Assembly (NCBI GenBank): GCA_003024785.1
Contig: PUQB01000935.1
Span: 1-64,000 of the forward strand
Reading direction: 5' to 3'
DNA from: Selaginella tamariscina
Lineage: Eukaryota; Streptophyta; Lycopodiopsida; Selaginellales; Selaginellaceae
DNA: 64,000 nt
Within the stretch, counting starts at the first letter, position 1, and each line of letters opens with the position of its first letter. The notes beneath the pieces are model-generated. The model saw nothing but the letters and a program-made list of their open reading frames with translations. It was not told where the DNA came from and searched no databases. Position numbers and translations under genes: made by a program. Positions 18,061-55,686 of the stretch are shown piece after piece.

Positions 18061-21000
18061 GTGATACTAATCTAACTAGAAACCCTAGAGCCGAGCGTAC
18101 CACGAAAACAAAACCCAATACAACCCAGAGCATAGTGTCCACAGTAGTGATACTAATCTAATTAGAGACCCTAGAGCTGGGCGTACCACAAAAATAAATC
18201 CCAATACAACCATAATTGTCATGTTGCCGACTGTTTGTTAATTATCCTTCCGATTGTTTCTATATCTCCGGAAGTGTTACTATATAAAAAAAGAAGAAAT
18301 AATGTGCAAGCGCACAGACACTGTGTCTGTTTCTCTTCCTAAACCCTATTCAAATCCCATTTCCCCTTAAATATATCATGATTTTAAAAGTATATTCTCT
18401 TACGTGGCAAAATGGCACAAAATCCTAAAAACAAGCTTCTCTTGAACTTAATGGTGGTTTGACAACTATATAAATTAATATTTAATGATTTAAATTCTTT
18501 AGTTTTGATAAGCATAACTGCCAACAAGCTCAATTGGCACAGGTATGAAATTCCTTAGTACAAAAAAAAAGAAAATATATATTTCACATAATTAGCTCAT
18601 AAAATTACATTTTAATTTACTAGATTTATTTTAGTAATTACTTTTGATGTGTTTATAAACGCATATATGTATATAGCATATAATATATATTATATACACA
18701 CATATATATGTACTTTACTAAATAAATGTGCATATGTATACATAAATATAAATGTTTTAATTGGTTAATAAATATATGTGTGTGTTTGATTCATGGGTTT
18801 GGGCAATGGGAAATACACACACACATACACACATATATATCATCTAAATCATCCATAACAAGATTAATCCAAAATACATGCACATGCATGAAATATGTGC
18901 AAAGAAATACTTATTATTTTGTGTTTTAACCCATTCATGTTCTTCATCCAATCCAAAAAACCAAGTACATACATGCATATTATAATTTATAATTGAATAC
19001 TAGCTAATTATTTTGGATAAGTGTTTTAGAGAGTCTCAAGGTACAAAACATTTATAAATTTATGCCACAATAACCATTATTTAAACTAATAAACATATAA
19101 CATCACTTTATGCAAGGTCCTTAACCTCCAAAGCAATATAAAAATGATTCATCTTGGAGAGACTGGGTTTTCTCTCCCGTGCTTCACACGTGTACGTGTA
19201 CACACAATATGTCTAAGAATATAGTAGTAAGCAAAGATTGTGTGACACTGTTATGTTACAGTGACAATAATACTATACATATTTGATATTAGACTCAAAA
19301 CTATGTAGAGTCTAATAACAAAACCTCGTATAATGCAATGCCGACCTGGTAACTGGAGTAAAGTTCTCAGGTGTTATTCAGCAATGGCTAGACTATTGTC
19401 TTATTAGTTAGTGTTATTACGTCTTGCTACATATGGCTTGTTTTATAGCATACACTAGTGCAAATTGGGGCTGAATTTCTTGCATATGCGAGTGTCACAA
19501 CAATCCATTGTGACAGCCCTAATTTCATTATCATTATTTATAGACAACCCTAATATCATTAAGGTTATTCATTCTATTTAATTAGAAGTGTAAAAAATTA
19601 TTTGGCTATACATCAAAGTGTATTTTATTATTTATTCTAAGGTAAATATTAATTAGATTTATTATAATTTATAATTCACAAAAATTAAAATTGTAACTTA
19701 TGTATACTACTCAACCAAATACACTTACCTAGAGACATATTAGAAGTTTAATATGATTAAATCTGTAATTTTAAATAAAGTATTTGTACTATGATTTACT
19801 CGATGTCTCATAAAGAACCGTGACAATCATCACCTTATATATCTGAAATAAAATCCTTAACTAGGTAATGTATAGTTTATTTCAATGAAATTAAAACTTA
19901 AAATTTGTTATTATCACTTTCTTTTTTATGTCTCATCTAATATTAATAAGAATTAGTTCATTCATTTGTGTATGAGTTATATAAATTAAATTTAATAAGA
20001 AAGAAATAGACGTTTCTTTTGAGAAATAATAAGTAGTATTAATATTATGATAAAAATTAATACTATTTAATTAATATAATACATGATTTATTTAAATGAC
20101 TTTCACCACTGTAATAATAATGATACTTAGAATCACTCTTTCGATCCAGATCTAAATACATACACCTCCAGTATCACTTTTTTTTTAATCAAGAAAAATG
20201 TAGCCAACTAAAAAGATTTGACTTGTTTACCAAACCATTGGTTGAGAGTATGTTACAGGATGAGTGCATCAGAGGGTTGGAATACCATTAATTTAATTAA
20301 CCACAAAGACGGTAGGGGGAACGTTTTGAGGACAAATAATTTAAAACAAATAATTTAAAAATTAATTTTTAACTAAAATTTCACATGTAATTGCATATGC
20401 CGGAAGAGGGCAACTACATGACAAGGATGAATACAAAGCTACAAGGCAAAGGATCCTTCATCATCTGTTATAAATCTTAAAAATTAAATTATCATATTTA
20501 TAAATAATCAACATGTAATACAAGGTTAGGAAACCTTTCCTTATATATAAGGAGGCTAGATACTTACATATAGTTCTAGTATATACCCTAGAATATACAT
20601 AAGGTATATTTTATAAAATCTTTAAAGTACTCCCTTTATGTTCCATAAAATCTTATAGTACTTCCTCCTTCAAACTTAATGTCAATGATATTTAAACAAT
20701 TGTGTACATTTTAATCAACTTCATATGAATTATGAACCATGTACATTTGAAAACCCAATCTTTACATAATATGGACCAAGTTAGTTGAAAATTAATCTAA
20801 AGGACCAACCTTTAAGATGCATCTTCAGATATAAAACCAACACTTCATCACCCACAACATAATAAAAAAACAAACAAATGCCAAGCATTATAATATCATT
20901 CATGTACCTCTTGGGTATGAAATAACCTTATTAACTTCTCCTCACACAACACCGAAATTCTAATCAATTTATTGACTCCATGTTTGTATATCTATTGAGA

Positions 21001-21338: not shown

Positions 21339-21868
21339 TGTTAAGCCACAATCCAGGAACAAGAAAGTGAGCAAGATTTCGAGAACAAGGAGGCTTAACT
21401 CAGGAGTAGGATAAGGAACAGGATAGGGAGCAGGATAGAAACTAGAGTAGGACAGGAACTAGGAACCAGGAGCAAGATGAGAACTAGGAATAAGATAAGA
21501 GCAAGAAGCAAGGAGCAAGACAAGAACAAGGAATAAGAATGATCATAGAATGATTGGTGTTGATAGTAACTGATTGTATAATAATTAGGTCGGAGCTTTT
21601 ATGCTCACAACTCCAAGAACTAATATGGTCATGAGTCTAATCTAGTCATGAGCTAAAAATGATGACCCTTATCCTCTAGGCATATCCTGTAGCATATCCT
21701 TTAGGCATATCCTGTAGCATATCCTTTAGGCATATCTTATAGGAGTATCCTGCAGGCATATCCTGTAAAAATATCCTGTAGGTATATCTTGTAGGCATAT
21801 CCTATATTTCGTATCCTGTATCATGTAACCTGTATCCGAAATCCTGCATCTTATATCGGGTCGTGACA
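21339..21868 (-). repeat. 3' LTR of element 1
   Basis: The ends are TGTTAAGCC and GGGTCGTGACA as written on the plus strand. The right part is a run of ATATCC-TGTAGGC type units, which form the U3 in element orientation. The TATA-like CATAAAAGCTCC is conserved on the minus strand near 21,600. Confidence 0.85.
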
Positions 21869-21969
21869 GCACCTCCTCCTTAAGGATGAGTTCCACGAGT
21901 CTTGGGACTTAGTTTAGCAGGATATTCCGATGGAAGGTAACAACCTTGAACGAAGCATGGAGTAAGCTA

Positions 21970-23480
21970 GATGCAAGTTCTCAAGTGTGATCGATAGGCA
22001 AATAACCTTTCCAATCCACTAAGTATTGAAGTTGGCGGCGATGAAGACGAGAATCAAGGATGGCTGCCACTTCGTACTCAGGTTCATTGTCAATAACCAC
22101 AGAAGGGGAGGAAAGGAGAAGACCAGGAAGAGAAGAAGGATGATATGGCTCCAACAAAGAGGTGTGAAACATAGGATGAAGTTTCACCATAGATGGTAAC
22201 TCAAGTCGGAAAGCTACAGGATTGACCTCAGGGCCCAATCCTTGAAAATCCAACTTAGATGAAGGCCTATTGGTGTGAATATGCCGACAAAGAAGCCAAA
22301 TGAGGTCACCAACCTTGTATGCAGGTGCCGGTTGATGGTGAGCATCAGCATGACGCTTGTACCGTTCTTGTGCCTGCTGAAGATGAATCCGGAGATCATC
22401 CTGTACCTGATGAAGATGCTGAAGACGATCATGTACTGCAGGAGCGGAAGAAGGAAAAGTAGGAGGAACAAAGTCAAAACGTGGATGGTAGCCTGTAAAG
22501 ACCAAAGAAAGGTGTCTGGCCTGTAGATGCGTGAACGGAATTGTTGTAGGTAAACTCCACCATCGGAAGAAGGTCTAACCAGTTGTCCTTATTGGTAACT
22601 AATGAAGCAGCGAAGATATTGCTCCAAGGTCTGAATTTGGACTGCCCATCAGTTTGTGGATCATATCATGAAGAAAGATCCGCTTTCACTTGTAGACTTC
22701 GAAGAAGCTCTCGCCAAAACTTGGACATGAATTGTGGGTCTCGATTAGAAACATGCTCTCAGGAAGACCATGATGTCGGAACACTTCGGATCACCAACTC
22801 AGCAGTTGTCTGGCCTGTAGCGTCTTGTTACATGGTAGGAAATGAGCCTGTTTGGTGAAACGGTCAACCACCACAAGAACTGCATCAAACCCAGAGGAGG
22901 AAGATCTGTGAGGAAATCCATAGAAATGGATCTCCAAGGAGCAGAAGGAACAGGAAGAGGACGAAGAAGACCAGAGGGTGCATGACGAGGCATCTTCGAC
23001 CTGTTGCAGGTCACAACTCCGTACAAACCTTTCCACAAAACCTCGCAACCCAGGCCACCAATAGTTGCGAGTCACCAACTCAACTGTCTTGGCCACACCA
23101 AAATGTCCTGTAGCCGGGGTATCATGACAATCCTGTACCACACGAGTCCTAAAAACCAACAGGAACGTACAGGAGACCTTCCCGGTACAGGAGTCCATCC
23201 TGTATGGCAAACAACTTGTAGTCTGAAGGGAACTGGAGGAAGAGGAGCTTGCAATGTCAGGATAATGTGTGAGAACACATTCTTTGCCAAGTCGTCTGTA
23301 GCCAACTGCGAACGGATGTCCTGTAGAGTGTTGAATTTGCTGGAGCCTGATGAACCTGTAGTGCCGCAAGCCGGAATCGATCAGGACCCAACAACACTTG
23401 CCTTTGACAGTCATATGCAGGATCGCCTGGGGTCGGTGCAAGGTAAGAGCGCCTAGACAATGCGTCCGCCTTGCCATTCC
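21970..23480 (-). pseudogene. Integrase and chromodomain of element 1
   Basis: Read on the minus strand, the zinc-binding HHCC region ([20 protein letters not shown], then a CDxC remnant) is at about 23,150-22,980. The catalytic core begins with [10 protein letters not shown] and [14 protein letters not shown]. The C terminus is a chromodomain (EYEVAAILDSRLHRRQLQYL, then VDWKGY) at about 22,080-21,985. Chromodomains of this kind steer integration to marked chromatin. Several frame shifts break the gene. Confidence 0.85.
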
Positions 23481-23499
23481 GAAAACCGGCCTGTAGACG

Positions 23500-24720
23500 A
23501 TGACAAATCAAAACGTGATAGGAACTCTGCCCACCTAGCCTGTCGTCGACTGAGAACTCGAGCCGTTTGAAAAACTCCAGGTTCTTGTGATCCGTAAGAA
23601 CTTGTACAGGATGTGCAGCACCTTCCAGGAAATGCCGCCACTCCTCGAACGAATCCACAATGGCCTTGAGTTCCTTGTCATGAATCTCGTAATTGATCTC
23701 CCAAAGGAACTTACGAGAGTGAAAAGCTACAGATGAAAACTTGTCTTCTAACTTGTGATAGGACGATCCTACTGCAAAATCCGAGATCTGCTTCAACGAA
23801 GAAAGGACGAGAAGGATCAGGATGTGCTAAAATCGGAGCTGTCGTGAAGGTGTCCTTGAGTGTTGTGAATGCATGTTCCGCCTTGTCGGACCAAGAGAAA
23901 ACCTCTGTGCGCTTGGTGAGTTCCGTGAGTGGAAGTACACGCTTGGAGAAGTCCTGTATGAACCGCCTGTAGAAGTTTGCAAAGCCAAGGAAACATTGTA
24001 CATCTCGTACAGACTTGGGCCTCTCCCACTCCACGATGGTCTTCACCTTGTGCATGTCCATGGAAACGCCAGCAGGAGAGACGATGTAGCCCAAGAACTC
24101 CACAGAATCCCTATCGAAAAAACACTTCTCCAACTTCGCATACAGCCATGCTCGGAAGCCGCTGTAGAACTAATCGTACATGCTTGTCATGTGCCGCCTG
24201 GTCCTTGGAGAAAATCAAAATGTCGTCGAGGTAGATCACCACAAACTGGTCCAAGAAGTCACGAAAGATGTCGTTCACCATGTGTTGGAACACGGCTGGG
24301 GCATTGGTAAGGCCGAAAGGCATCACCGTGTACTCGAAGTGTCCATACCTTGTACGAAAGGCAGTCTTCCACTCATCGCCTGGACGAATCCGTACAAGGT
24401 TGTAGGCCCCTCGTAAGTCGATCTTCGTGAACACCTTTGCTCCTCGCAGCCGATCGAGAAGTTCCGGGATCAATGGCAACGGTACCGATTCCGAATGGTG
24501 ACTTGATTCAAACCCCTGTAGTCCACAACCAAACGTAAACTCCCATCCTTCTTCTTGACAAAAAGATAAGTGTCCTGCAGGGGACTTTGAGTGACGAATG
24601 AAGCCGGATGCCAAGTTGTCCTCGATGTACTGGCGAAGAACCTCCAACTTGTGGTGACAGTGCATAAATCGGTCCGAACGGTGGAGTCTTTCCTTCTGCA
24701 AGATCAATAGGACAGTCGTA
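23500..24720 (-). pseudogene. Reverse transcriptase and RNase H of element 1
   Basis: The reverse transcriptase palm has [15 protein letters not shown], the [14 protein letters not shown] motif and the YLDDILIF active site (about 24,440-24,200). RNase H follows with ILAHPDPSRPFFVEAD and later AFHSRKF and DHKNLEF (about 23,850-23,560). The upstream part of the palm near 24,540-24,590 has lost frame relative to element 2. Confidence 0.85.
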
Positions 24721-25379
24721 GGACCTGTGAACAGGAAGAACTGCAGCCTTGTGCTTGTCAAAAACGTCCTAAAGAGTGATACTTGGATGGTAGGGAAGGA
24801 GGAGAAGGAGAAGGAGCAGGAGAAGAGATTGAAAAACAGGGAGTCAGATACAGGAAAGGTAGAAGAGGACGTAGGAGTTACTTGAAAGGCAAAAAGGTGA
24901 AAAGGAGCAGGATCAGTGGCAAGTTCATGCATGGTAGTGGTAAGAACTCGAGAGGAGAAGGAGGGAGCTGTGACTGAAAAAGAGGAAGGATCTTGGGGGG
25001 TGGAACAGAAGCAGAGTAATGAAAAAGGCAGGATTGGGAAAACCTGTGTGGATGTTGACAAGTGTACAGGATTGGAAGAATCCTGTACAGAAGTCCGTGG
25101 AGCACAGGAGTGAGGAGAGCCTTGAGTGTGCTGACGAACCAACAGGAGGTGGATCCTGTTGAGGAGGAACCTTCGACACTGATACAGGATTGGAAGAACC
25201 CTGTATAGGAATCCGCAAACTTACAGGAGTGGAGAGAGCCTGATGTGCTGAGGAACTGACATGAGGTGAATCCTGTCGAGGAGGATCTTCAACACTGATA
25301 CAGGAACAGGCACGGTCAATCCTGTAGCTTGTACTGCCTCAGACACTAAGATATCCTGCACACAGGAAGGTACATGATT

Positions 25380-25705
25380 GATCTTGTTGCCAGAGAGAAA
25401 CGTGAGCGTCCTAGACCTCTAGTCGATCTGAGGATTTGCAACCATGAACCATGGCATGCCCAAAATGATGGGAGTCAACCGAGTCTTGATTAAGTTGAAG
25501 AAAATAAAACAGTTGAATGCGCCATAACTGCAAAAGAGAGATGTGGTAGCATGGCTAACTATGCCAGAAGCAATCAGACGACCATCGGCCACCTCTACAG
25601 GAATTGCACGCTTCAGCTTCACCACCAAAATGCCATGATGAGTTGCAAAAGTGTCATCTATGAAACATGCATTTGCACCAGTATTTAACAGGGCAAACTC
25701 CTTGA
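25380..25705 (-). pseudogene. Protease fragment of element 1, active-site Asp changed
   Basis: The aspartic protease signature reads LLNTGANACFIDDTFATHHG, where element 2 has LLDTG. The catalytic Asp is therefore Asn here and the protease is dead. The reading frame is cut at 25,705 by the nested solo LTR. Confidence 0.8.
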
Positions 25706-26224
25706 TGTCATGACCCAATACAGAATGCAAGATACATGATACAAGTTAAAAATATGCCTATAGAATATACCTACAGGATATTTCTACAGGATATACCTAC
25801 AGGATATTCCTACAGGATATGCTTATAGAATATACCTACAGGATATGCATGTAGGATATACCTACAGGATATTCCTATAAAATATGCCTATAAGATATAC
25901 TACAGGATATGCCTAGAGGATAAGGGTCACTATTTTTAGCTTATGACCAGATTAGACTCATGACCAGATTAGCTTGGAGTTGTGAGTATAAAAGCTCTGA
26001 CCTAATGGTTGTACAATCAATTATTATCAACACCAGTCTTTATATGATCAATCTTGTCTTGTCTTGTTTGCTCCTTGCCTCCTGCTCTTGTCTTGTTCAT
26101 GGTTCCTAGTTCCTGTCCTACTCCCTGTCCTACTCCCTGTCCTGCTCATTGTCCTGCTTCTGAGTCAAGCTTCCTTATTTTCGGAATCTTGCTCACTTCC
26201 TTGTTCCTGGATCGTGGCTTGACA
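25706..26224 (+). mobile_element. Nested solo LTR of the chromovirus family
   Basis: This 519-bp LTR has ends TGTCATGACC and GGCTTGACA and lies in the opposite orientation to its host element. It is flanked by CTTGA (25,701-25,705) and CTTAA (26,225-26,229), a five-base target duplication with one later change. It splits the protease/gag region of element 1. A TATA box (TATAAAAGC) is at about 25,987. Confidence 0.9.
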
Positions 26225-26229
26225 CTTAA

Positions 26230-27552
26230 GCTCTCGATTATTGAGACGAATGTGTATAGGAAATTTGAGTGATGGAATGGTATGAGCAGCACCAATGGAG
26301 CCTGCACCTACATCCAACTTTGTGGCTCCTAAACGAAGTGGACATTCAAGTTTTCCGACTGAACTTCAGCTTCAACTTCACGCATCTTGAACTTCCTGGC
26401 TTTAATAGGACATTCTGCCACCTTGTGTCCTGCTTCACCACAATACAAGCATAGGTTCTTACTGCGGCGACGTTACTTCTCAGCAATGAAAAGAGAGCCA
26501 CGCTTGCATTTCTCAACCTCCATATGAATTACTCCAGAAGGTGTTGCAGGAACATGTACCACAGTTGCAGGATTGGTTTACAGGAACTACTGATGGGATC
26601 TTTCTTGATGACGCTCGAACAAATGATTGTCACAGCGAACGGCTTGTTGCATGATCTCTAATAATGTTTGGGCATTCGGTAACGTAAGGAGAAATGCACG
26701 TTATAACTAAAATGGGCATGATATAAGAAAATGGGAATATAAAATAAATATTAATTAATACATAAGTTCTAATTCTTAATTAATTATTTAATAAAAATAT
26801 ATTTAAATCTTTCTTTAAACATATATTATTCTAAAGAATATTTTTGTAATATTAAAAATGCTAATTAAATATTTAAAATTGTTAATATTATTTAAAAATG
26901 GGACTATAGATATGCCCATTTTAGTTACAACATGCATAGAAGGTCCTTCATGTCATTCCTCAACCCAAAATGGAAGTGTTCGATTAATGCAATCTCGTCC
27001 CATGGAATGTTCGTGCAAGTTGCTGAAATTCGGATGCATAAACAAAAGCTGGTCGGGATCCTTGGGTGAGTTTTCATAACTTCGTGCATGCGGAATGGTC
27101 CTTATCGAGATTTCCAAAGTAGGCTTCAAAGGCAGCCACGAAACCTTCAAAGTCTTTCATCAATGAGTCGTCACGCTCCAGCAAGGGGGCAACCCAACCC
27201 GTGGAGATTCAATTAGTAAGGATGCCAAAAGGCCAACCTTTGATGCATCAGTCGAGTAGCAGCGTGGTTGCATGCGGATTCAAGAGCTGGATTTGATTTA
27301 GGAAACCTTGGAAATCGGTGCGATTGCCACTGAACTTTTCTAGCATACTGATCTTCGGCTCTAAAGAAGCGTTCGATGAAGAGGAAACCACCAATGCTTA
27401 AGAGAGAGCCTGTGTAGTAGCCTTGGAGGATGCATTAGCAGTTGCATGCGCCACGTTGGTGGAACCTTATAGATCTGTAACCACTTGGTGCAAGTGGCCA
27501 GCTCATGAAGTAACATTTGGTGCTCATGTTGAAATTGCTCAAAATCGGCCAT
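26230..27552 (-). pseudogene. Gag of element 1, interrupted by a MITE-like insertion
   Basis: The start at 27,552 gives MADFEQFQHEHQMLLHELA, the conserved Gag N terminus of this family. A CCHC zinc knuckle (CLYCGEAGHK then AECP) is encoded near 26,456-26,405. The frame is broken in several places and by the insertion at 26,694-26,937. Confidence 0.8.
26694..26937. mobile_element. MITE-like insertion in gag
   Basis: A 244-bp AT-rich segment interrupts gag exactly where element 2 is continuous. Its ends are imperfect inverted repeats of about 26 bases (ATGCACGTTATAACTAAAAT... and ...ATTTTAGTTACAACATGCAT). It is flanked by AGAA on both sides, a likely target duplication. No coding sequence is present. 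Confidence 0.8.
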
Positions 27553-27671
27553 GATCTATGAAAGAATAAAGGAGGAAAACGAAGGAGAAGAATCAAGAAA
27601 AAAAAGTAGTTGGAAATTAGAAAGTTATGAAACGAGTTTACTATTAAACTGTCAAGCCACAATCTAGGAAC

Positions 27672-28282
27672 TGTCAAGCCACGATCTAGGAACCAGGAAG
27701 AGAGTAGGATTTCAAGAACAAGAAGGCTTAACTCGGGAGCAGGACAGAGAGCAAGACAGGAACTAGGAACTCAGAAGCAAGATAAGAACATGATAGGATT
27801 CGGAAGAGACAGGAACAGGATAGGATTCAGGAGCAAGACAGAAAGGCGCAGAAACAGGATCCAGGAACAAGACAGGAACAGGACATGATCCAGGAGCAAG
27901 ACAAGGAAAGAACAAGAAGTAAGGCAAGAACAAGACAAGACAAGATTGATCGTAGTAAGACTAGTGTTGATAGTAACTGATTGTACAACAATTAGGTCGA
28001 AGCTTTTATGCTCACAACTCCAAGAGCTAATCTAGGCATGAGTGTTAAAAGTGGTTGCATGCATGCAAAGTGATTGTATGCATGCAAAGTGACTGTATGC
28101 ATGCAGAGGCTAAGATGAGTAAACATGTCCCTTATCCTCTAGGCATATCCTGTGACATATCCTATAGGAATATCCTACAACCGTATCTTATATCCGGAAT
28201 CCTGGTAGGAATATCCTATAGAAAAGTCTTGCAACCCGTATCCTGTATCCGGAATTCTATATCCTTATATCGGGTCGTGACA
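27672..28282 (-). repeat. Shared middle LTR of the tandem chromovirus array
   Basis: This LTR is at once the 5' LTR of element 1 and the 3' LTR of element 2. A 22-bp duplication of its left end (TGTCAAGCCACAATCTAGGA) starts at 27,650. Near 28,055-28,107 it holds three copies of a unit built on TGCATGCAAAGTGA. Confidence 0.85.
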
Positions 28283-28389
28283 GCACCTCCTCCCTAAAGA
28301 CGAGTTCCACGAGTCTTGGGACCTGGTTTAGCAGGATAATGCCGATGGAAGGCAGCAACTTTAAGGGAAGTTGGATAGTGTGCAGGTTG

Positions 28390-29723
28390 TGGCAAGTGCG
28401 TCTTTAATCCCACCAAGTATTGAGTTGGCGGCGATGAAGACGAGAATCAAGGATGGCTGCAACTTCGTACTCAGGTTCAGTGTCAATGACCACAGGAGGG
28501 GGAGGAGAAGAAGCACGACCGGAAGAGAAGAAGGATGATACGGCTCCAACAAGGAGGTGTGAAACACAGGATGAAGTTTCACCGTGATGGTAACTCGAGT
28601 CGGAAAGCTACAGGATTTACCTCCGCCACATCCTGTAAGGGCCCAATCGTTGAAAATCCAACTTAGAAGAAGGCCTGTTGGTGCGAATGTGTCGACGAAG
28701 AAGCCACACGAGATCACCAATCTTGTATGCAGGTGCCGGCTGACGGTGAGCATCAGCATGATGCTTGTATCGTTCCTGTGCCTGCTGAAGATGAACCCGG
28801 AGATCATCCTGTACCTGACGAAGATGCTGGAGACGATCCTGTACTGCAGGAGCGGAAGAAGGAGAAGCGGAGGAGCAAAGTCAAAACGTGGATGGTGGCC
28901 TGTAAGAGCAAAGAAAGGTGTCTGTCCTGTAGATGCGTGAACGGAGTTGTTGTAGGCAAACTCCGCCATTGGAAGAAGGTCCAACCAGTTATCCTGGTAA
29001 CTGATGAAGCAACGAAGATACTGTTCCAAGGTCTGAATTGTGCGTTCGACTGCCATCAGTTTGCGGTGATATCCTGAAGAAAGATCCGCTTTAACCTGTA
29101 GACTCCGAAGAAGCTCTCGCCAAAACTTGGACATGAATTGTGGACCTCGATCGGAAACAATGCTCTCAGGAAGACCATGATGTCGGAACACCTCACGGAT
29201 CACCAACTCGCAGTTGTCTGACCTGTAGCTGTCTTGTTGCAGGGTAGGAAATGAGCCTGCTTGGTGAAACGGTCAACCACCACAAGAACTGCATCGAATC
29301 CACGAGAAGGAGGAAGATCTGTGAGGAAATCCATAGAAATGGATCTCCAAGGAGCAGAAGGAACAGGAAGAGGACGAAGAAGACCAGAGGGTGCATGATG
29401 AGGCATCTTCGACCTGTTACAAGTGTCACAACTCCGTACAAACCTTTCCACAAAACCTCGCAACCCAGGCCACCAATAGTTGCGAGTCACCAACTCCACT
29501 GTCTTGGCCACACCAAAATGTCCTGTAGCCGGGGTATCATGACAATCCTGTACCACACGAGTCCTGGAAATACCAACAGGAACGTACAGGAGACCTTCCC
29601 GGTACAGGAGTCCATCCTGTATGGTGAACAACTTGTAGTCTGACGGGAACTGGAGGAAGAGGAACTTGCAACGTCAGGATGAATGTGTGAGAACACATTC
29701 TTTGCCAAGTCGTCTGTAGCCAA
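28390..29723 (-). pseudogene. Integrase with chromodomain of element 2
   Basis: [20 protein letters not shown] and CDTCNRSK form the HHCC zinc-binding module (about 29,545-29,410). The core keeps [24 protein letters not shown], the second Asp in IVSDRGPQF, and [14 protein letters not shown]. The catalytic Glu lies after YHRK, where QTDGQSER is expected; that stretch is damaged. The chromodomain region at about 28,500-28,400 is degraded (LILVFIAANSIL in a shifted frame). Confidence 0.85.
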
Positions 29724-29829
29724 CTGCGAACGGATTGTAGGAGTGTTGAATTTGCTGGAGCCTGATGAACCTGTAGTGCCGCAAGCCGGAATCGATCAGG
29801 ACCCAACAACACTTGCCTTTGACAGTCAA

Positions 29830-31076
29830 TGCAGGATCGCGCTTGGTGCAAGGTAAGAGCGCCTAGACAATGCGTCCGCCTTGCCATTCCGAAAAGGGCC
29901 TGTAGACGATGACGAAGTCAAAACGTGATAGGAACTCCGCCACCTAGCCTGTCGCCGACTGAGAACTCGAGCCGTTTGAAAGTACTCCAGGTTCTTGTGA
30001 TCCGTAAGAACTTGTACAGGATGCAGCACCTTCCAGGAAATGCCGCCACTCCTCAACGAATCCACAATGGCCTTGAGTTCCTTGTCATGAATCTCGTAAT
30101 TGATCTCCGCGAAGGAACTTACGAGAGTGAAAAGCTACAGGATGAAGCAACTTGTCTTCTCCAACTTGTGATAGGACGGATCCTACTGCAAAATCCGAGG
30201 CATCTGCTTCAACGAAGAAAGGACGAGAAGGGTCAGGATGTGCTAAAATCGGAGCTGTCGTGAAGGCGTCCTTGAGTGTTGTGAATGCATGTTCCGCCTT
30301 GTCGGACCAAGAGAAAACCCTGTGCGCTTGGTGAGTTCCGTGAGTGGAAGTACACGCTTGGAGAAGTCCTGTATGAAGCCTGTAGAAGTTTGCAAAGCCA
30401 AGGAAACATTGTACATCTCGTACAGACTTGGGCCTCTCCCACTCCACGATGGTCTTCACCTTGTGCATGTCCATGGAAACGCCAGCAGGAGAGACGATGT
30501 AGCCCAAGAACTCCACAGAATCCCTATCGAAAAAACACTTCTCCAACTTCGCATACAGCCATGCTCGCGAAGCCGCTGTAGAACTAAGTACGTCTTGTCA
30601 TGTGCCGCCTGGTCCTTGGAGAAAATCAAAATGTCGTCGAGGTAGATCACCACAAACTGGTCCAAGAAGTCACGAAAGATGTCGTTCACCATGTGTTGGA
30701 ACACGGCTGGGGCATTGGTAAGGCCGAAAGGCATCACCGTGTACTCGAAGTGTCCATACCTTGTACGAAAGGCAGTCTTCCACTCATCGCCTGGACGAAT
30801 CCGTACAAGGTTGTAGGCCCCTCGTAAGTCGATCTTCGTGAACACCTTTGCTCCTCGCAGCCGATCGAGAAGTTCCGGGATCAATGGCAACGGGTACCGA
30901 TTCCGAATGGTGACTTGATTCAAACCCCTGTAGTCCACAACCAAACGTAAACTCCCATCCTTCTTCTTGACAAAGAAGATAGGCGCTCCTGCAGGGGACT
31001 TTGAGTGACGAATGAAGCCGGATGCCAAGTTGTCCTCGATGTACTGACGAAGAACCTCCAACTCTGTGGGTGACAA
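29830..31076 (-). pseudogene. Reverse transcriptase and RNase H of element 2
   Basis: The palm region reads [20 protein letters not shown], then [40 protein letters not shown] and [11 protein letters not shown] (about 31,000-30,620). The thumb and connection have [19 protein letters not shown]. RNase H shows [26 protein letters not shown] and the DHKNLEY motif. One frame change lies near 30,590. Confidence 0.9.
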
Positions 31077-31866
31077 TGCATAAATCGGTCCGAACGGTGG
31101 AGTCTTTCCTTCCGCAAGATCAATAGGACAGTCGTAGGACCTGTGAACAGGAAGAACTGCAGCCTTGTGCTTGTCAAAAACGTCCTTAAAGTCGTGATAC
31201 TTGGATGGTAGGGAGAAGAAGGAGAGGAGAAGGAGAGGAGAAGGAGAAGTAGGAGAAAGGAGAGGAGTAGAAGGAGATTGAAAAACAGGAGAGTCGATAC
31301 AGGAAAGGTAGAAGAGGACGTAGGAGTTACTTGAAAGGCAAAAAGGTGGAAAGGAGCAGGATCAGTGGCAAGTTCATGCATGGTAGTGGTAAGAACTCGG
31401 AGAGGAGAAGGAGGGAGCTGTGACTGAAAAAGAGGAAGGATCTTGGGGGTGGAACAGAAGCAGAGTAACAAAAGAGGCAGGATTGGAAAAACCTGTGTGG
31501 ATGTTGACGAGTGTACAGGATTGGAAGAATCCTGTACAGGAGTCCGTGGTTGCGCAGGAGTGAGGAAAGCCTGCGAATGTGCTGAACAACAGGAGGTGGA
31601 TCCTGTTGAGGAGGAACCTTCGACACTGATACAGGATTGGAAGAACCCTGTACAGGAATCGCAAACTTACAGGAGTGGAGAGAGCCTGCGGATGTGCTGA
31701 GGAACTGACATGAGGTGAATCCTGTCGAGGAGGAGTCTTCAACACTGGTACAGGAACAGGCACGGTCAATCCTGTAGCTTGTACTGCCTCAGATACTAAG
31801 GATGTATCCTGCACACAGGAAGGTACAGGATTGATCCTAGCTGTCGGAGAGGAAAACGTGAGCGTC

Positions 31867-32445
31867 CTAGACCTCCAGTCGATCTGCGGATTTGCAACAA
31901 CGAACCATGGCATGCCCAAAATGATGGGAGTCGACCGAGTCTTGATCAAGTTGAAGGAAATTGAACAGTTGAATGTGCCATGACTGCAGGAGAGGTTCGG
32001 TAGCATGGGTAACTGCGCCAGAAGCAATCAGACGCCCATCGGCCACCTCTACAGGAACTGCACGCTTCAACTTCACCACCGAAATGCCATGTTGAGTTGC
32101 AAAAGTGTCATCCATGAAGCATGCATTTGCACCAGTGTCTAACAGGGCAAACTCCTTGAGCTCTCGATTATTAAATGAATGTGTACAGGAAACTTGAGTG
32201 ATGGAATGGTATGAGCAGCACCAATGGAGCCTGCACCTACGTCCAACTTCGCGGCTCCTAGACGAAGTGGACATTGAAGTTTTCCGACTGAACTTCAGCT
32301 TCAACTTCACGCGTCTTGAACTTCCTGGCTTTAATAGGACATTCTGCCACCTTGTGTCCTGCTTCACCACAATACAAGCATAGGTTCTCACTGCGGCGAC
32401 GTTGCTTCTCAGCAGCGGAAAGAGAGCCACGCTTGGATTTCTCAA
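31867..32445 (-). CDS. Protease region of element 2
   Basis: The sequence FALLDTGANACFMDDTFATQ holds the intact D-T-G active-site triad of a retroviral-type aspartic protease, at about 32,155-32,095. It is followed by VPVEVADGRLIASGAV and LGMPW, the usual family landmarks. The frame upstream overlaps the end of gag. Confidence 0.8.
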   Translation of the reverse strand: MRNPSVALFPLLRSNVAAVRTYACIVVKQDTRWQNVLLKPGSSRRVKLKLKFSRKTSMSTSSRSREVGRRCRLHWCCSYHSITQVSCTHSFNNRELKEFALLDTGANACFMDDTFATQHGISVVKLKRAVPVEVADGRLIASGAVTHATEPLLQSWHIQLFNFLQLDQDSVDSHHFGHAMVRCCKSADRLEV

Positions 32446-33215
32446 CCTCCATAGGAACTACTCCAGAAGGTGGTGCAGGAACATGTACCACAGCTGCAGG
32501 ATTGGTTTGCAGGAACTGCTGACGGGATCTTTCCTGACGACGCTCGAACAAACGGTTGTCGCAAAACAGCTTGTTGCATGATCTCCGCTAATGTTTGGGC
32601 ATCCGGTAACGTAAGGAGAAGGTCCTTCACGTCATCCCTCAACCCAAAACGGAAGTGTTCGATCAATGCAGTCTCGTCCCATGGAATGTTCGTGCAAAGT
32701 TGCTGAAATTCGGATGCATAGACGGAAGCTGGTCGGGATCCTTGAGTGAGCTTCGTAACTTTGTGCATGCGAACGGTACTTATCAGGATCTCCAAAGCAG
32801 GCTTCAAAGGCAGCCACGAAACCTTCAAAGTCTTCCATCAATGGGTCGTCACGCTCCAGCAAGGGGCAACCCAAGCCTATGGAGTAAGGATGCCAAAAGG
32901 CCAACCTTTTGTGCATCGTCGAGTAGCGGCGTGGTTGCATGCGGATCAAGAGCCGGATCTGATTCAGGAAACCTTGGAAATCCACGATTGCCACTGAACT
33001 TTTCTGGCATGCTGACTTCGGCTCCGAAGAAAAGTTCGATGAAGAGGGAACCACCATGCCTGAGAGAGAGCCTGTGCAGCAGCCTTGGAGGATGCATCAG
33101 CAGCTGCATGTGCCGCATTGGTGGAACCTTGCAGGTCGGTGACCACTTGGCGCAAAGTGGCCAGCTCATGAAGCAACATTTGGTGCTCGCGTTGAAAGTG
33201 CTCAAAATCAGCCAT
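32258..33215 (-). pseudogene. Gag of element 2
   Basis: The start at 33,215 gives MADFEHFQREHQMLLHELA and a predicted helical N terminus (TLRQVVTDLQGSTNAAHAAA). The middle has FEGFVAAFEACFGDPDKY, the capsid-like core. The CCHC zinc knuckle (CLYCGEAGHKVAECP) is at about 32,385-32,335. Three frames are needed to read it through, so small indels are present. Confidence 0.8.
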
Positions 33216-33294
33216 GATCTATGAAAGAAAAAGGAGGAAAACGAAGGAAAAGAATCAAGGAAAAAAAAGTAGCTAGAAAACGGAACTGTCAAAC

Positions 33295-33865
33295 TGTCAA
33301 GCCACGATCCAGGAACCAGGAAGAGAGTAGGATTCCAAGAACAAGAAGGCTTGACTCAGGAACAGGACAGAGAGGAGGATAGGAACTAGGAACTCAGAAG
33401 CAAGACAGGAACAAGATAGGATCTGGGAGAGAAGGAACAGATAGGATCCGGGAACAAGACAGGAAGGCGCAGGACAGGATCCAGGAACAAGACAGGATCA
33501 GGAGCAAGACAAGGAAAGAAAAAGAAGCAAGGCAAGAACAAAACAAGACAAGATTGATCGTAGTAAACTGGTGTTGATAGTAACTGATTGTATAACAATT
33601 AGGTCGGAGCTTTTATGCTCACAACTCCAAGAGCTAATCTAGGCATGAGTGCTAAAAGTGGTTACATGCATGCAAAGTGACTATGCATGCAAAGGCTAAG
33701 ATGAGTCACATGTCCCTTATCCTCTAGGCATATCCTGTGGCATATCCTGTAGGAATATCCTGCAACCGTATCCTGTATTCGGAATCCTGGTAGGAATATC
33801 TGTAGGAAAGTCCTGCAACCTGTATCTTATATCTGGAATCCTGTATCCTGTATCGGGTCGTGACA
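33295..33865 (-). repeat. 5' LTR of element 2
   Basis: The ends are TGTCAAGCCACGATCC and ATCGGGTCGTGACA on the plus strand. A TATA-like CATAAAAGCTCCG on the minus strand near 33,610 precedes CAATCAGTTACTATCAAC, the proposed RNA start. It is followed at 33,866-33,925 by a fragment of another LTR of the same family. Confidence 0.85.
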
Positions 33866-38002: not shown

Positions 38003-39206
38003 ACCACATAGTTTTTATCATAACTATTCTTTACTTTGGACATTAATTTTTATTACCTATAGAACTATCTAAGTGTTAAGGAAACATGTTCACTTTGTGC
38101 ATTTGAATATTTAGTGATGGTTCAACTGGGTGTCATTAGGTATTTATAAAAACTTATAGGCAAAGCTAACACTTCCATCTAAAAAAATTCTCTTATTTTA
38201 ATGTTATAATTGGTGAGTTTGGCATGTCGGACCCCTAGGGTGACCTTAACCCTAAGTTTTCCTTAACCCCATGCCCTAAACCCCTTGGGTTAGTGTTTAG
38301 GTGTCAATGAGTTATTAAGTTCAATTTACCAAGTATACGTTTATTTAAAACAAGATACTATGCTAACCCACTTTACAAAACATGAAAATCGAGGGGGGTC
38401 ATATAAATTAAGTAGGATAAGTGTGAGAAAAACATGCCAGAAACTAAGAGGTGTATGGTTCCTTCTTCCTCATCAACATAAGCCTAACTTATGTTGTTAA
38501 AGCACATCATTTATGCTGCCCTAACTTCCGATACATCACACTGTAAGGATAGCATACCCTTATCACTGGTAAATCTATGCATGGGAGGTCATGTCGGAAT
38601 ACACGTTCCAATGGTCATAGTTTGAGGCATGTCTCCAACCTCCTCCTTCATGTCAAGTTAAGAGCAACACTCATAACTAAGCAGGGCACATTCATGTTAT
38701 TATCCAACTATGAGCATGGGATCTTGGTTAACATATTCTCTTTATCAAGTTTCTGATGGTTCACATAGGGGTTCTAGAGTTGTCATCAGTGAGCCATGTT
38801 TGTGGCACCATATATAATGTTTGATTCTAAGGGGTCATGAGGAGATAGCCCATATCTTGAAATAGTGACACATGAAGATGTAACACTAAGTTATGTGACA
38901 CACAGTACAACGCCTAAGGCACATTCTTTGGGATGGTCTCACAGACTTAACACCAAGGGGTGGGATACTCTAGAAAGCAAATGTGCTTATGCTCGCACCA
39001 TGGTGTTAAACCTTAGGCATCTGCTCAAGAGAGGTTAGGTTGCATACATAAGTTATCATGACTCGATACAGGATATAGGATATGCCTATAGGATATATTT
39101 ATAGGATATGCCTACAAGATAAGGGACATTATTTTTAGCTCATGCCTAGATTAGCTCTTGGAGTATCATTTTAGCTTATACTTAGATTAGCTTTTGGAAC
39201 TGTGAG

Positions 39207-39214
39207 TATAAAAG
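39207..39214 (+). promoter_or_regulatory. TATA box in the left LTR of element 3
   Basis: GAGTATAAAAGCTCCGAC is conserved in nearly all LTRs of the family. About 27 bases downstream is CAATCAGTTACTATTAA, the proposed start of the element RNA. Confidence 0.7.
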
Positions 39215-39370
39215 CTCCGACTTAATTGTTGTACAATCAGTTACTATTAACACCAGTCATTCTACGATCATTCTTCTCATGTTCCTTGTTCTTGTCTTAT
39301 TTATTGTTCTTGCCTTGCTCTTAAGTCAAGCCTTCTTGTTCTTATCATGCTCTTGGGTCGTGGCTTGACA

Positions 39371-39389
39371 ATTTGATAGTAACTGATTG
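39371..39389 (+). other. Primer-binding site, likely self-primed
   Basis: Directly after the LTR end (GGCTTGACA) comes ATTTGATAGTAACTGATTG. Its last 17 bases are complementary to CAATCAGTTACTATTAA at 39,234-39,250, with one mismatch; other LTRs of the family have CAATCAGTTACTATCAA, a perfect complement. No tRNA-type site (TGGTATCAGAGC for initiator Met) is present. This fits the Tf1/sushi mode, in which the 5' end of the RNA folds back as primer. Confidence 0.65.
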
Positions 39390-44010: not shown

Positions 44011-44879
44011 AAAGGTTATTTGATCGCACTTGAGAACCTGCATCCAATTTACTTAATGCTTCTTTCAAAGTTGCTCCTTTCCATCAACGTTATCTTGCTA
44101 AACCAGGTACTAGGACTCGTGAAACTCATCCTTAAGAAGGAGGTATTGTCGCAACCCGATACGGGATACAAGATATGCCTACAGGATATATCTACAAGAT
44201 TTACCTACAGGATATGCCTACATAATATGCTTATAGGATATACTTACATGATAAGGGATATTATTTTTAGCTCATGCCTAGATTAGCTCTTGGAGTATCA
44301 TTTTTAACTTATGCCTAGATTAGCTTTTGGAGTTGTGAGTATAAAAGCTCTGACCTAATTATTGTACAATTAGTTATTATTAACACCAATCATTTTACGA
44401 TCATTCTTGTTTTGTTCCTTGTTATTATCTTGTTCTTTACTCTTACTTTGTTCTTGCTTTGCTTTTAAGTCAAGCCTCCTTATTCTTATCCTGCTCTTGG
44501 TAAGTGTGTTATTAACACATCTAGCTAGGGGGTGTTCTTCTTAAGGTTTAGGAGTTGAACAACTTAAGCTTGATATCAAGAACTCTTTCGTGAGGCATTT
44601 GTAATGTCGTGTACTTAGAGTTATTCAAATTTAGCCGTAGGGAGTTTACTTAGCAAAACACTTGTGTTTGCATATGACATACACTCATGTTCTCATTAAG
44701 TATTAACCCTAGGTATATGGACATTTAAATTAAACTCTCAAAGTCATCTTAAGTATTAACCCTAGGTATATGGACATTTAAATTAAACTCTCAAAGTCAT
44801 CTTAAAAGACTTAGTGTTACTCACAAGATATTAACATTAATTAATTACTTAACAACTCCTTTAGGTAAAAACTCAGACA

Positions 44880-46600: not shown

Positions 46601-46720
46601 ATCTATACATACAGACATACATAGATATAGATTCACAAACACCCACACACTTCTAATGGAGATGCAGCGATTATATATGAATTATAGAAAAGTATATGTA
46701 CACAAATAAATGTGAACCCA

Positions 46721-47225
46721 CCTTAAGCTCCGCCAGGTTCGTTGAGTAGCTTTAATCCTGAACTTACAAGAACAAGGGAGCAGTTAAAGCACATATTATA
46801 AACATTTATACATGTGTATACAGAGTATACACATGCATACACGCACGCACGCACACACATACACAATATTACTCACCTCCTTTAAAACAGAAGTTAAGGA
46901 TGCAATTGAGGTCACTCTAGTATTTCCCAAAATTGTATTAGAGCATCAACATTGGGAAGCTTGAAATATATATTAAAAAACAAGTTAGATTAACAACCAA
47001 GATATATAAATATATTTTATACAAATGCATATATATGCATATATATAAGGGTGAAAAGGGTAAATACCAGGTAATGGGAGGCAGAAAATGTCAAATGTGG
47101 CAACTGTTGTGAACAAGATTGCACAAAGGGCTTCCGCAGTGGATATCATCGCGAAAGATATACTTCCTCATTCCACAATTGCGATCGCTTTAGAGTGTCT
47201 CTTGAACTTGCATTTACGATTCATC
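46721..47225 (-). pseudogene. DIS3L pseudogene: exons 2-4 only
   Basis: The sequence keeps DIS3L exon 2 (47,225-47,068), exon 3 (about 46,960-46,878) and exon 4 (about 46,761-46,721) with their intron order and splice sites. Small deletions break exons 2 and 3; one of about 10 bases lies near 46,899. The exon 1 ATG is lost. Nothing corresponding to exons 5-29 is present. It cannot make an enzyme. Confidence 0.85.
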
Positions 47226-47340
47226 TGAAACACACAAAATGCACACACACACATAAGAATCAATACATCAAAATGTACATATTAAGCACACAAGCACACG
47301 CCCACGCGCGCACACAGATTTGTGCTCACCTCGCAGATCA

Positions 47341-47802
47341 ACATAAACCCTAATTTAGATTAAACTAATTAAACCTGGTCGATGTCGCGAGTGCGAGTTC
47401 TTCCCTGATATAATATATGGCTTGTGTTACTATTATGTTTCTAAAGCTTAAATTATATGATAGTTTGCACAGACAAGATGTGCTGCCTAGAGCAAGGAAT
47501 GAGGAGAAGACTGCAGAAGATATCCTGGACAAGTTTACTGTCTAGCAAGGAACGAGGAGGAGACTGCAGATGTACTGCCTAGAGTAAGGAATGGGGAAGA
47601 CTGCAGAAGAATATCGCTGAACAAGATGTACTGTCTAGAGCAAGGAATGAGGAGAAGACTGCAGGGGGGGTGTGCAAACTATCATATAATTTAAGATTTA
47701 GAAACATAATAGTACTCTGTAGACATACATTATATCAGGGAAAACTCGCACTCGCGACATCGACCAGGTTTAATTAGTTTAAATCAAATTAGGGTTTATG
47801 TG
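47341..47802. repeat. Large inverted repeat, arms of about 130 bp
   Basis: The arms 47,341-47,470 and 47,673-47,802 are reverse complements with few differences. Both contain AAACCTGGTCGATGTCGCGA and the telo-box region of the DIS3L promoter. The 200-bp loop holds four minisatellite units (AAGATGTACTGTCTAGAGCA type) in the orientation opposite to copy 1. Confidence 0.9.
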
Positions 47803-47865
47803 AGTAGATTACAGATTTTATACACATATATATATAAATAAAACTATACTCAATTAAGTTACTAG

Positions 47866-48106
47866 AAGACCATGGTGAAAGTGGACAAGATGTACTGTAT
47901 AGAGAGGAGAAGACTCCAGAAGATATCACCAGATAAGATGCCCAAAATTGTATTAGAGTGTTGGAATGGGAGTTAATTTGTTTTTTTATATTTGAAGCTT
48001 CCCAATTCCGGACGCTCTAATACAATTTTGAGCATCTTGTCCGGTGATATCTTCTGGAGTCTTCTCCTCTCTATACAGTACATCGTGTCCACTTTCACCA
48101 TGGTCC
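47866..48106. repeat. Near-perfect palindrome, stem of about 105 bp, loop of 26 bases
   Basis: The arms are 47,866-47,970 and 47,997-48,106. Each combines a minisatellite unit (GACAAGATGTACTGTATAGA) with a piece of DIS3L exon 3 (CAAAATTGTATTAGAG). A transcript from either strand would form a long hairpin. Confidence 0.9.
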
Positions 48107-48128
48107 TGTAATTGAGTATAGTTTTATT

Positions 48129-48159
<31 letters not shown>

Positions 48160-48179
48160 CACGTGTATAAAATGTAAAT

Positions 48180-48749
48180 TATGTATAGCAGTGTGTGTAG
48201 GCACATACTCAACAGACATGTATCCCAGACTGATGTGCTATTTCCCTCCTGATTACTGTTCATGAGAAGAGCTTGAGAACATTATTTGTTGTAGGCATTT
48301 GTATATGAACAGTTGCTCCTTGGCAGTTGCAATAAGGCACAGTCACTTCGATTGCAATCAAAATTAAATATTTCATAGTTAATTAAGACTAACTTAATTG
48401 AATGACATATGTTAACAATTTTAGTATAATTACTAATTAAATTTATTAATATATAATTTATATAACTTAATATAGAGCATAAATTTGGCAATAAATCACT
48501 GTTTTATAATTAATAATTCTGCATCTCACTCTGGCAGCTTTAACTTTTATGCGCTTATCTGCAGTAGTCTGTTTTGTCCAACAGTTAAACACTATACAAC
48601 TTATTATTAACATGCTAAGTATCAACATAAAATAGAAAGAAAATATAAATCTAGAAACTATAATAATTTTTTGTAGAACTAGTGTTATTACCTTCATTTG
48701 AGGTGATTGTTGGCCCTTTCCCTTTTCTGTTTGCGAAACAACAGACCAT
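48180..48749 (-). pseudogene. Remnant of the tandem-repeat gene
   Basis: An ATG at 48,749 opens MVCCFANRKGKGPTITSNE and ends at a GT donor near 48,691. The next exon begins QTTADKRIKVKAA near 48,580 but runs into an insertion of about 180 bp (48,345-48,525) absent from copy 1. The end of the corresponding exon is near 48,210. The repeat exon is reduced to fragments in the palindromes. Confidence 0.6.
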
Positions 48750-51707
48750 AGCAATCTAATTAGAAACCCTAACCTGGGAAAAAGAAATCCCATTACAATC
48801 TAGAATATAGTTGTTCTCCCACCCATTGTTCTGACTGTTACTGTATCTCCAGAAGTGGTACCGTTAAAAAAAAGGAGAAAGTAATGCTCAAGCACTCTCT
48901 TTATTTATTTCAATCTTATTTGGCTTTTCAATGTACTAATGATTTTAAAACATATTCTCTTATGTGGCAAAATGGCTAAAAAACATTGAGTCTGTGCATT
49001 ACTAACTGTATAATTTAATATTAATTATTTAAATTGTTTAATGTAGATAAGCATAAGTGTCAACGAGCTCAGCTGAGTTTCACCTTTCATATTTGTACAA
49101 GTGTCATATCAAAGTCCTTAATGCAAAAAAAAAAGAAATTATGTATTTCACACAAGTTTTTATTTCTTTATAATTAGCTTATAATTACATTTTAATTTAC
49201 TAGATTTATATTAATAATTACTCTTATGTGTTTATAAACACGTATATGAATATAGGATATAATATAATATTATATACATACATACACACACACACACGTG
49301 CGTGTGCTTTACTAAATAAATGGTCTTTGGAGCATATGTATACATAAATATAAATGTTTTTCGTTGGTTAATACAGATATGCGTGTGTTTATTCTTTGAC
49401 ATAATTTATTAATATATCATGAATATAGAATTTAACTATTGATATCTTTATTAATTTAAATTACTTTAAAAAACATCAATCTTAAACACTGATTGAGATT
49501 CTTTAAGTATATTATTTTCCCAAATATTATTGTTATTCTTTGTTTAGTTTAAAATAAATTTAATATATCTAGCAGTGCATTTATGTTTTATATGTCTACA
49601 TAAGTATGAGACATACATACATAAGACATCTTCTTTACATTTTAAAAACAATTAATATCATTACCTGTATTATTTGATTAAATAACATTAATTCATTATA
49701 ATATTAATACTCTTATATTTATTATTATCAAAAGAAACTTAAGTTTTTTTTCTTATTAAATATAAATTTATATAACTCATACACAAAATGAACCAGCTAA
49801 TTCTTATTAATATTAGATGAAACATAAAAAGAAAGTGATAATAACAAAGTTTAAGTTTTAATTTGTTAAAATCCACTTAAATAACTACACATTACCTAGT
49901 TAAGGATTTTATTTCAAATTATAAGGTCATGGTTCTTATTCTATGAGAGCCATTGAAATAAATCGTATATCATTCAATACAAATACTTCAATTAAAATTA
50001 TAGATTTGATCGTATTAAGTTCATTCTAATTAAGAACTTTGAAGTTCTAAAATCTAATTAACATATTTACCTCACTTCAATGTATAACTAATTATTTTTA
50101 GTAATGATATTAGGGTTGTCTGGATTGTTGTGGCACTATGTGCTTATCATTTACTTTGCAATTACATTATCAGCCTCTGTACTTGTACTGCAACTATAAA
50201 ATATGATACTCATATACAAGAAAGTCTAGTAAATGAACGTAGCCGTAGCCCAATTTACACGAGTGTATGTTATAAAATAAGTCATATGTAGCAAGACATA
50301 ATACATTAATAAGACAATATTTAGCCAAGTGAAATTAGTGAAGTCTAGCCATCGGTGAATAAGACCTGAGAACTTTACTCCAGTTACTAGGTCTGCACTG
50401 CATTAAATGAGGTTTTGTTACTAGACTCTAGTATAGTACCAAATATGTACAGTATTTATGTGACTAGAACATACATATTAACACAATCTTTGCTTACTGA
50501 GTACATGCATATGTGAACTATTTATCTGTGTATTCTTAGACATACATGTGTGTACATGTACACGTACGAAGCATGGGAGAGGTGACTTTAAAACCTAAAC
50601 CCTAAACTAGTTGTGTACATGTATATAATAAATGTTTCTGGTTTAGTGAAGAGTTGCAAGCAACCAAGATGAATCATTTCTATGTTGCATTGGAGGCTAA
50701 GCCTTATAGAAAGTGATGTTATATGTTTATTTGTGATTATTGTGGCTGAAATTTTATAATATTTCTATAAGATGCCTTGAGACTTTCTAAAACACTTAAC
50801 CATAATAATTAATTAGGATTCAATTGCAGATTATAATATGCATGTATGACTTGGTCTTTCGGACTGGACGAAACGTTTTCTAGAATGTGAAGAGCATGCT
50901 TCCTCATGAAACAACAAATAAGTATTTCTTTGCACAGATTTCAGAATGTGCATGTATATTGGATTAATCTTGTTATGGATGATTTAAGATGATATATATA
51001 TATATATATATATATAATGCTTTAATAATAAAGGTTATAACTATAACATTTCCATATGGGAAACAGTCCAAAAATTTCCATGTGGGAATTTGAAAATTCC
51101 AGAATGAGATATACAAAGAAGAGTTTTAATGTATGTATATATGTATGAATTTATGTAAACAGTATCATGGGTTTGAGTATTTTGATTTATCTAAATGACT
51201 TTACCACTGTGATAATAATGATACTTAGAACCACTCTTTCCATCCAGATCTAAATACATACAACTAAATAATAGTTATGAACTGACTAACCATTGATTGA
51301 GAGTACATTCTTTTGAAGTTACAGGTTAAAGGGTATGTTGGAATACAAGTAATCTAATTAACTTTGAGCGTTTTGAGGAGTAAAATAAATTAAAAAATAA
51401 TTAAAAATTAATCCTTTAATTAAAATTTCACTTGTAATTGCATATGGGAAGAGGGAGTTACAAGGCAAAGGATCCTTCGTATGTTATAAATCTTAAGAAT
51501 TGTATTGTCATGTGTATTAACGGGACGATTATGATATACATCCCTTTTGTATTAGTGGTAATTAATTAATAACATATATTTAAGAAAATTTATATATACC
51601 AGGTTTTTTTCATTCACATATAAAACATTAAAATACTTAATTAATTATGATTAACCCTTATCAATAATAGTGATAGGTATGAATATGATATGGCTAAGAA
51701 GTGATTC

Positions 51708-55157: not shown

Positions 55158-55686
55158 TGTCACAACCGATACAGGATACAGGATGCAGGATACAGGTTTC
55201 CGGATACAGGATACAGGATACGGGTTACAGGATATACCTGCAAGATATTCCTACAGGATATACCTATAGGATATGCTACAGGATATGCCTAGAGGATAAG
55301 GGCCACTATTCTTAGCTCATGACTAGATTAGACTCATGACTAGATTAGCTTGGAGTTGTGAGCATAAAAGCTCCGACCTAATTATTGTACAATGAGTTAC
55401 TATCAACACCAGTCTTACTACGATCAATCTCGTCTTGTCCTGTTCTTGTCTTGATTTCTGTCTTGTTCCTGTCTCGCTCCTGTTTCCTGTTCTGCTCGGA
55501 TCTTGTCCTGTTTCTGTTTTGTTCTTGGATTCTGTCCTGCACCATCCTGTCTTGCTCTTGGATCCGTCATGTTCCTGGATCCCTCCTGTTCCTGTTCCTG
55601 TTCCTAGTTCCTGTCCTGCTCTCGGTCCTGCTCCTGAGTCAAGCCTTCATGTTCTTGGAATCCTGTTCTCTTCCTGTTTCTTGACA
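55158..55686 (+). mobile_element. Chromovirus solo LTR with perfect target duplication
   Basis: The ends are TGTCACAACC and TTCTTGACA; the length is 529 bp. GCCAG is present on both sides (55,153-55,157 and 55,687-55,691). It is inserted in a family B LTR. Confidence 0.93.

Follow-up and report, generated by a model that had tools for sequence, protein, structure and literature searches.

In the window, the 64,000-nt stretch of Selaginella tamariscina DNA analyzed here, a single LTR retrotransposon family is represented by several old copies; its LTR pairs are 76–86% alike and its frames are broken. Element 3 lies on the + strand, with a 5′ LTR at 39055–39370 (start approximate; the last base, 39370, follows GGCTTGACA) and a 3′ LTR at 44147–44500 (end approximate), the two being 84.7% alike over 295 columns. 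Elements 1 and 2 lie on the − strand, with LTRs at 33865–33295, 28282–27672 (the middle LTR, common to both) and 21868–21339. Element 5, also on the − strand, has LTR ends at 63001 and 55807, and two further LTRs of the family are found at about 25.7–26.2 kb and 55.2–55.7 kb. The succession of LTR, internal region, LTR, internal region and LTR formed by elements 1 and 2 over 21339–33865 is such as LTR recombination leaves, and a further LTR, oppositely oriented, lies within element 1. In the U3 part of the LTRs a 13-bp unit (ATATRCCTACAGG-like) is repeated in tandem a varying number of times, at 25726–25923, 44147–44279 and 55206–55312.

Coding pieces recognized by Pfam include several on the − strand in elements 1 and 2. 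Element 2 carries gag and zinc knuckle pieces at 32261–32837 (PF03732, E = 2.7e-5; PF00098, E = 0.0019, below its cut-off), a protease piece at 31870–32457 (PF13650, E = 2.6e-5), the reverse transcriptase (RT) frame used for the RT tree at 30459–31361 (PF00078, E = 2.1e-29), an RNase H piece at 30088–30597 (PF17919, E = 8.5e-23) and integrase pieces at 28364–29673 (PF17921, E = 2.8e-20; integrase core PF00665, E = 2.2e-5, below its cut-off). An SH3_Tf2-1 and chromodomain piece of element 1 lies at 21984–22574 (PF24626, E = 1.7e-9; PF00385, 24.5 bits against a cut-off of 25.1, positions 1–28 of 53). This candidate chromodomain is half a domain in a broken frame; by eye it shows the Y, W and Y that the available text of PMC3350952 gives for group I. 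The label chromovirus, given to these elements in the sequence-only reading, is supported by the RT, the SH3_Tf2-1 piece and this putative chromodomain match just below the Pfam cut-off.

Outside the family, two long related stretches (15613–20504 and 46601–51520; 65–80% alike, with parts inverted and short tandem repeats) perhaps represent another mobile element family. An arogenate dehydratase gene at 1683–2922 (+) is spread over several frames, which reflects either assembly indel errors or a pseudogene. In a three-row group (99/98) it stands beside a Selaginella moellendorffii protein, to which it is 89% alike over 222 columns; in the search the lowest E-value belonged to a Lupinus protein with 46% identity, and the Selaginella protein was second, with 69% over 96%. 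A PPR search also had Selaginella as its best named hit, at 39%. The arogenate dehydratase points to a host close to Selaginella.

A self-complementary site beside the 5′ LTR

The sequence-only reading proposed that these elements are primed by their own RNA rather than by a tRNA, as the bases right after the 5′ LTR of element 3 are complementary to a word within that LTR. We confirmed this complementarity: positions 39373–39389 form 16 Watson-Crick pairs and one G·U pair with 39234–39250. The former stretch reads TTGATAGTAACTGATTG, the exact reverse complement of the family word CAATCAGTTACTATCAA, and the LTR of element 3 itself has CAATCAGTTACTATTAA at 39234–39250, the source of the single G·U among the 17 pairs. 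The TATA box of element 3 (TATAAAA, 39207–39213) starts 27 nt upstream of 39234, as had been claimed. The word CAATCAGTTACTATCAA is present in all nine family LTRs of the window, with no mismatch in four, one in three, two in one and three in one; the copy in the 3′ LTR of element 3, at 44367, has three mismatches. The perfect complement of the element 3 primer-binding site (PBS) that had been noted in other LTRs of the family is the zero-mismatch word of these four window LTRs. At 27 nt before the word stands TATAAAA in five of the nine LTRs and CATAAAA in the other four.

The pairing next to the 5′ LTR stood, as did the prediction of an RNA start in the region downstream of the TATA box, whereas the proposed length of 17 nt and the start at 39234 did not. 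We searched the assembly (300,702,823 bases, 1,391 contigs) at the DNA level with the element 3 junction and took the best 40 of 3,438 candidates, a sample that is hence biased towards element 3. The outer five bases, GATTG at 39385–39389, which pair with 39234–39238, occur at one of these 40 junctions, that of element 3; in none of the other 39 was GATTG found, and the commonest bases past PBS position 12 were GCTTT and CCTTT. A 17-bp primer with an RNA start at 39234 was rejected because its outer 5 bp are private to element 3, where they look fortuitous. The site shared by the family is thus 12 nt long (AGTTACTATCAA/TTGATAGTAACT in the genome copies), and the RNA start is now predicted, from the position of the TATA box, at A39239, 32 nt after that box. 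The putative 12-nt self-primer, AGTTACTATTAA (39239–39250), can form 11 Watson-Crick pairs and one G·U pair with the PBS at 39373–39384, which is separated from the LTR end by a 2-nt spacer at 39371–39372 (AT in element 3, GT in all 19 junctions chosen through the RT, see below).

The eroded sites quoted from beside the other 5′ LTRs were also found, as TTTGATAATAACT in element 5, TTTAATAGTAA in element 1 and TTTGACAGTT in element 2, all on the − strand. In element 5 the site (62987–62998) forms 10 of 12 pairs with the primer word of its own LTR (63195–63206), in element 1 (27636–27647; primer word 27967–27978) 9 of 12, and in element 2 (33281–33292; primer word 33574–33585) 8 of 12. When the letters of the LTR were shuffled, the match observed at 31–33 nt past the TATA box was equalled in 3 of 20,000 trials for element 3, 6 for element 5, 12 for element 2 and 20 for element 1. 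The primer word is conserved without standing out, at rank 28 among 141 LTR windows (0.90 vs a median of 0.85), and its conservation was discounted as evidence. The further claim that no initiator-Met tRNA site is present agreed with our scan, in which TGG was absent within 40 bases after the four 5′ LTR ends (39370, 63001, 33295 and 27650; the LTR end of element 1 is duplicated over 22 bp, and the second copy was taken as the end). Rfam and ARAGORN searches of the window found nothing.

Genome copies and relatives in other assemblies

Of the 40 junctions, 37 could be scored without gaps (L051, L062 and L069 were dropped for gaps, and L069 has no recognizable PBS). Watson-Crick pairing was complete over the 12 nt in 18 of them, with 11 pairs in 11, 10 in seven and eight in one; if G·U is counted, 22 pair at 12 of 12 positions and 15 at 11 of 12. 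Swapping the PBS among these 37 same-family copies had no effect (415 pairs vs a mean of 414.6), and the case for covariation therefore rests on differences between families and on one double change. The double change came from an RT search that was independent of the PBS, in which 131 of 17,088 candidates were scored and 20 were hand-picked, many of them with long open frames. The upstream stretch of 19 of these 20 shows the junction (the fetched stretch of L110 has none), and 18 of 20 pair at 12 of 12 positions, with the primer 32 nt past the TATA box and the PBS at the third base after the LTR end. Sixteen of the 18 perfect pairs are AGTTACTATCAA/TTGATAGTAACT; the other two, in L107 and L114, show the double change AGTTACAATCAA/TTGATTGTAACT, which leaves all 12 pairs in place and was probably inherited by both from a single event. 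In L111 the LTR word has lost 2 nt and the PBS is intact, and the stretches of loci L072–L091 end before the junction. The 13th PBS base is G in 17 of the 19 RT-picked junctions and the base preceding the primer is C in 18; a 13th pair, or an RNA start one base earlier, is possible. Many genome copies keep perfect pairs, while the four window copies are old and broken.

An RT-alignment scan of bacterial and archaeal assemblies returned 24 related loci, evidently eukaryotic DNA in bins. In seven of them, six from one bin (L001, L002, L003, L006, L009 and L022) and one from a second bin (L005), an exact self pair of 11 or 12 nt occurs in the same layout: a TATA box, 31–33 nt, a primer ending in CAA, an LTR ending in ACA, 2 nt, and a PBS beginning with TTG. 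Their primer words are AAGGCGAACAA (four contigs), AAGGTGAACAA, ACTCTTGATCAA and CAGTCTCGACAA. Each primer matches its own PBS at 11–12 of 12 positions and that of clearly different families at 3–8, and the two AAGG words, which are one step apart, match at 10 crosswise. In the shuffle control the observed match was reached in 0 of 20,000 trials for six relatives; the pair of L001 sits at +33/+34, and the shuffle test at +31 to +33 is thus void for it. Among the other loci, L007 has an eroded site, L017 a 9-nt pair 2 nt past the LTR, seen by eye, and L021 a tRNA-type motif; no site was found in 14 of the 24, several of which are contigs without the junction. As controls we used six stretches of more distant RT carriers from the first bin, in which the LTR ends were not mapped: L094 (on the same contig as L021) and L095 have the iMet-type motif TGGTATCAGAGC and no self word, and L092, L093, L096 and L097 have neither. 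A scan of viral contigs gave 26 pattern matches, none of them a relative.

The primer has a further complementary word, GTTCGCCTT, in L002, L003, L006, L009 and L022 (weaker in L005), about 12 nt after the TATA box and before the predicted RNA start; in L006 it reads GTTCACCT, changed in step with the primer. It could form a promoter hairpin in the DNA or have a role in the 3′ U3 of the RNA. Many eukaryotic retrotransposon contigs (those of L001–L004, L006–L009, L021, L022 and L024) are found in a public cyanobacterial bin (Trichormus, ERR2144891), and these probably come from its Azolla host.

In the RT tree, the window elements form a 14-row group (97/92) together with eight environmental proteins and loci L001 and L008. 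A wider group (44 rows, 87/80; not a strong fork) adds the remaining loci with a self pair, amphibian proteins, which we take to be sushi-type, and an Adiantum protein. Around these lies a strong group (56 rows, 100/92), and Ty3, L021 and two Tanacetum proteins fall outside it. By its RT the family thus falls with the Tf1/sushi group and is separate from Ty3 and from ordinary plant chromoviruses. The label Tcn1-like is given provisionally, from the Tf1/sushi grouping and the host, in a tree that contains no named Tcn1, Tf1 or moss element.

One explanation for the complementarity is chance, which appears to account for the outer 5 bp of element 3. For the 12-nt site, however, chance is refuted in practice, and its probability is negligible, given the shuffles, the four other words that occur in the same layout and the double change within the family. 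The compensating primer/PBS changes that the sequence-only reading had named as a check were found, between families and once within the family (L107 and L114), and these bear on a second explanation, in which a tRNA serves as primer, through its 3′ end or an internal half of the molecule, and the LTR match arises only incidentally. Most plant chromoviruses are primed by tRNA-Met, according to the available text of PMC6317226, and half-tRNA sites require no TGG. However, TGG is lacking in the 40 nt after all four 5′ LTRs, and differences between families in the PBS mirror those in the LTR word exactly, while within the family the two have changed together, which is unexpected for a conserved tRNA. 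We consider a tRNA primer very improbable.

Probable priming by the element's own RNA

The kept layout, the co-varying words and the lack of a tRNA 3′-end site argue for priming by the element's own RNA, and self-priming is the best explanation for a layout that persists across genome copies and relatives as its words change in concert. We conclude that the family is, with high probability, a Tcn1-like chromovirus of the Tf1/sushi group whose reverse transcription would be primed by the 5′ end of its own RNA. By analogy with Tf1, the RNA would begin at or next to A39239, and its first 12 nt would pair with the PBS. A cut after the terminal CAA of this word, presumably by RNase H as in Tf1, would free the primer, which would then be extended into U5, and removal of the constant 2-nt spacer would fall to integrase.

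In folds computed for the predicted leader RNAs, the 5′ end is paired with the PBS (z-scores of −2.4 for element 3, −3.2 for L001, −3.1 for L002 and −2.9 for L006). These folds also contain a second, Tf1-like stem, in which the LTR end pairs with the stretch that follows the primer; we discounted it as evidence, as combining halves of different families often gives pairing no worse than that of the true partners. Complementarity is by itself no proof of priming, and the RNA 5′ end might pair beside the LTR for leader folding, dimers or packaging, or the match might serve as a promoter hairpin in the DNA, with an unrecognized primer starting synthesis; the further complementary word before the RNA start in some relatives would fit such a role. 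However, in seven relatives and 19 junctions the site begins after a gap of 2 nt from the LTR end, the position required of a PBS, and its length and place agree with those described for Tf1 in the available text of PMC7175516. We therefore regard pairing for a purpose other than priming as unlikely.

Comparison with known self-primed elements

A prediction of self-priming already exists for the Tcn1 clade in mosses and club-mosses: in the available text of Neumann et al. 2019 (PMC6317226), most plant elements of this clade (moss, club-moss) are without tRNA sites and predicted to be self-primed, unlike other plant chromoviruses. The family described here resembles them in its relationship to Tf1/Sushi, in having no tRNA PBS, in a self-primer within the 5′ LTR and in the class of its host. 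That prediction was made from complementarity of at least 10 bp, whereas here a predicted RNA start, the primer length, the 2-nt spacer and the co-variation are worked out. A bare prediction for plant Tcn1 elements would in this way become a precise model, with an RNA start at 32 nt past the TATA box, an 11–12-nt primer, a 2-nt spacer and co-changing words. The same source also gives the TAR lineage of Ty1/copia (Houba, Osr-1) as predicted to be self-primed in plants, but this lineage belongs to another superfamily.

For SM-Tcn1 of Selaginella moellendorffii, the available text of Novikova et al. 2010 (PMC2864245) reports that neither a tRNA PBS nor self-priming was found; among the plants surveyed there, Tcn1-like elements were seen only in mosses and Selaginella. 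Our family is like SM-Tcn1 in being a Tcn1-like chromovirus of Selaginella with TG…CA LTRs and a TATA box. SM-Tcn1 has no recognized self PBS in that account whereas the window family has a plain one, a comparison made by description and not by sequence. A clear primer site is now at hand for Tcn1-like elements in a Selaginella-type genome, where the earlier study of SM-Tcn1 found none. Annotation limited to tRNA sites would overlook such a PBS.

The contigs from the bin of an Azolla symbiont, with several primer/PBS words, and the Adiantum protein in the same RT group suggest a tentative extension, which we rate as possible rather than probable: self-primed Tcn1-like chromoviruses may reach ferns, and primer and PBS may diversify as a locked pair that keeps families from cross-priming. 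Each new primer/PBS pair would be copied as a unit, since plus-strand DNA would re-copy the RNA primer. If this is true, primer/PBS switching, seen once within one family of one genome, would stop families from priming on each other's RNA. We found no report of self-primed Tcn1 elements in ferns in the literature searched, a body of text that has most subscription journals outside its coverage.

The closest parallel in mechanism is Tf1 of Schizosaccharomyces pombe, whose leader is described in the available text of PMC10085805 as a 'pretzel' of three duplexes; here the primer-PBS duplex is present in all four predicted folds, and the second stem is non-specific. The Tf1 primer consists of the first 11 bases of the RNA, cut between bases 11 and 12 (PMC7175516, available text). 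As in Tf1, the RNA 5′ bases, predicted in our case, would pair with a PBS beside the 5′ LTR, and the family has a candidate chromodomain; the primer is 11 nt long in Tf1, 12 nt in the window family and 11–12 nt in its relatives, and the words differ.
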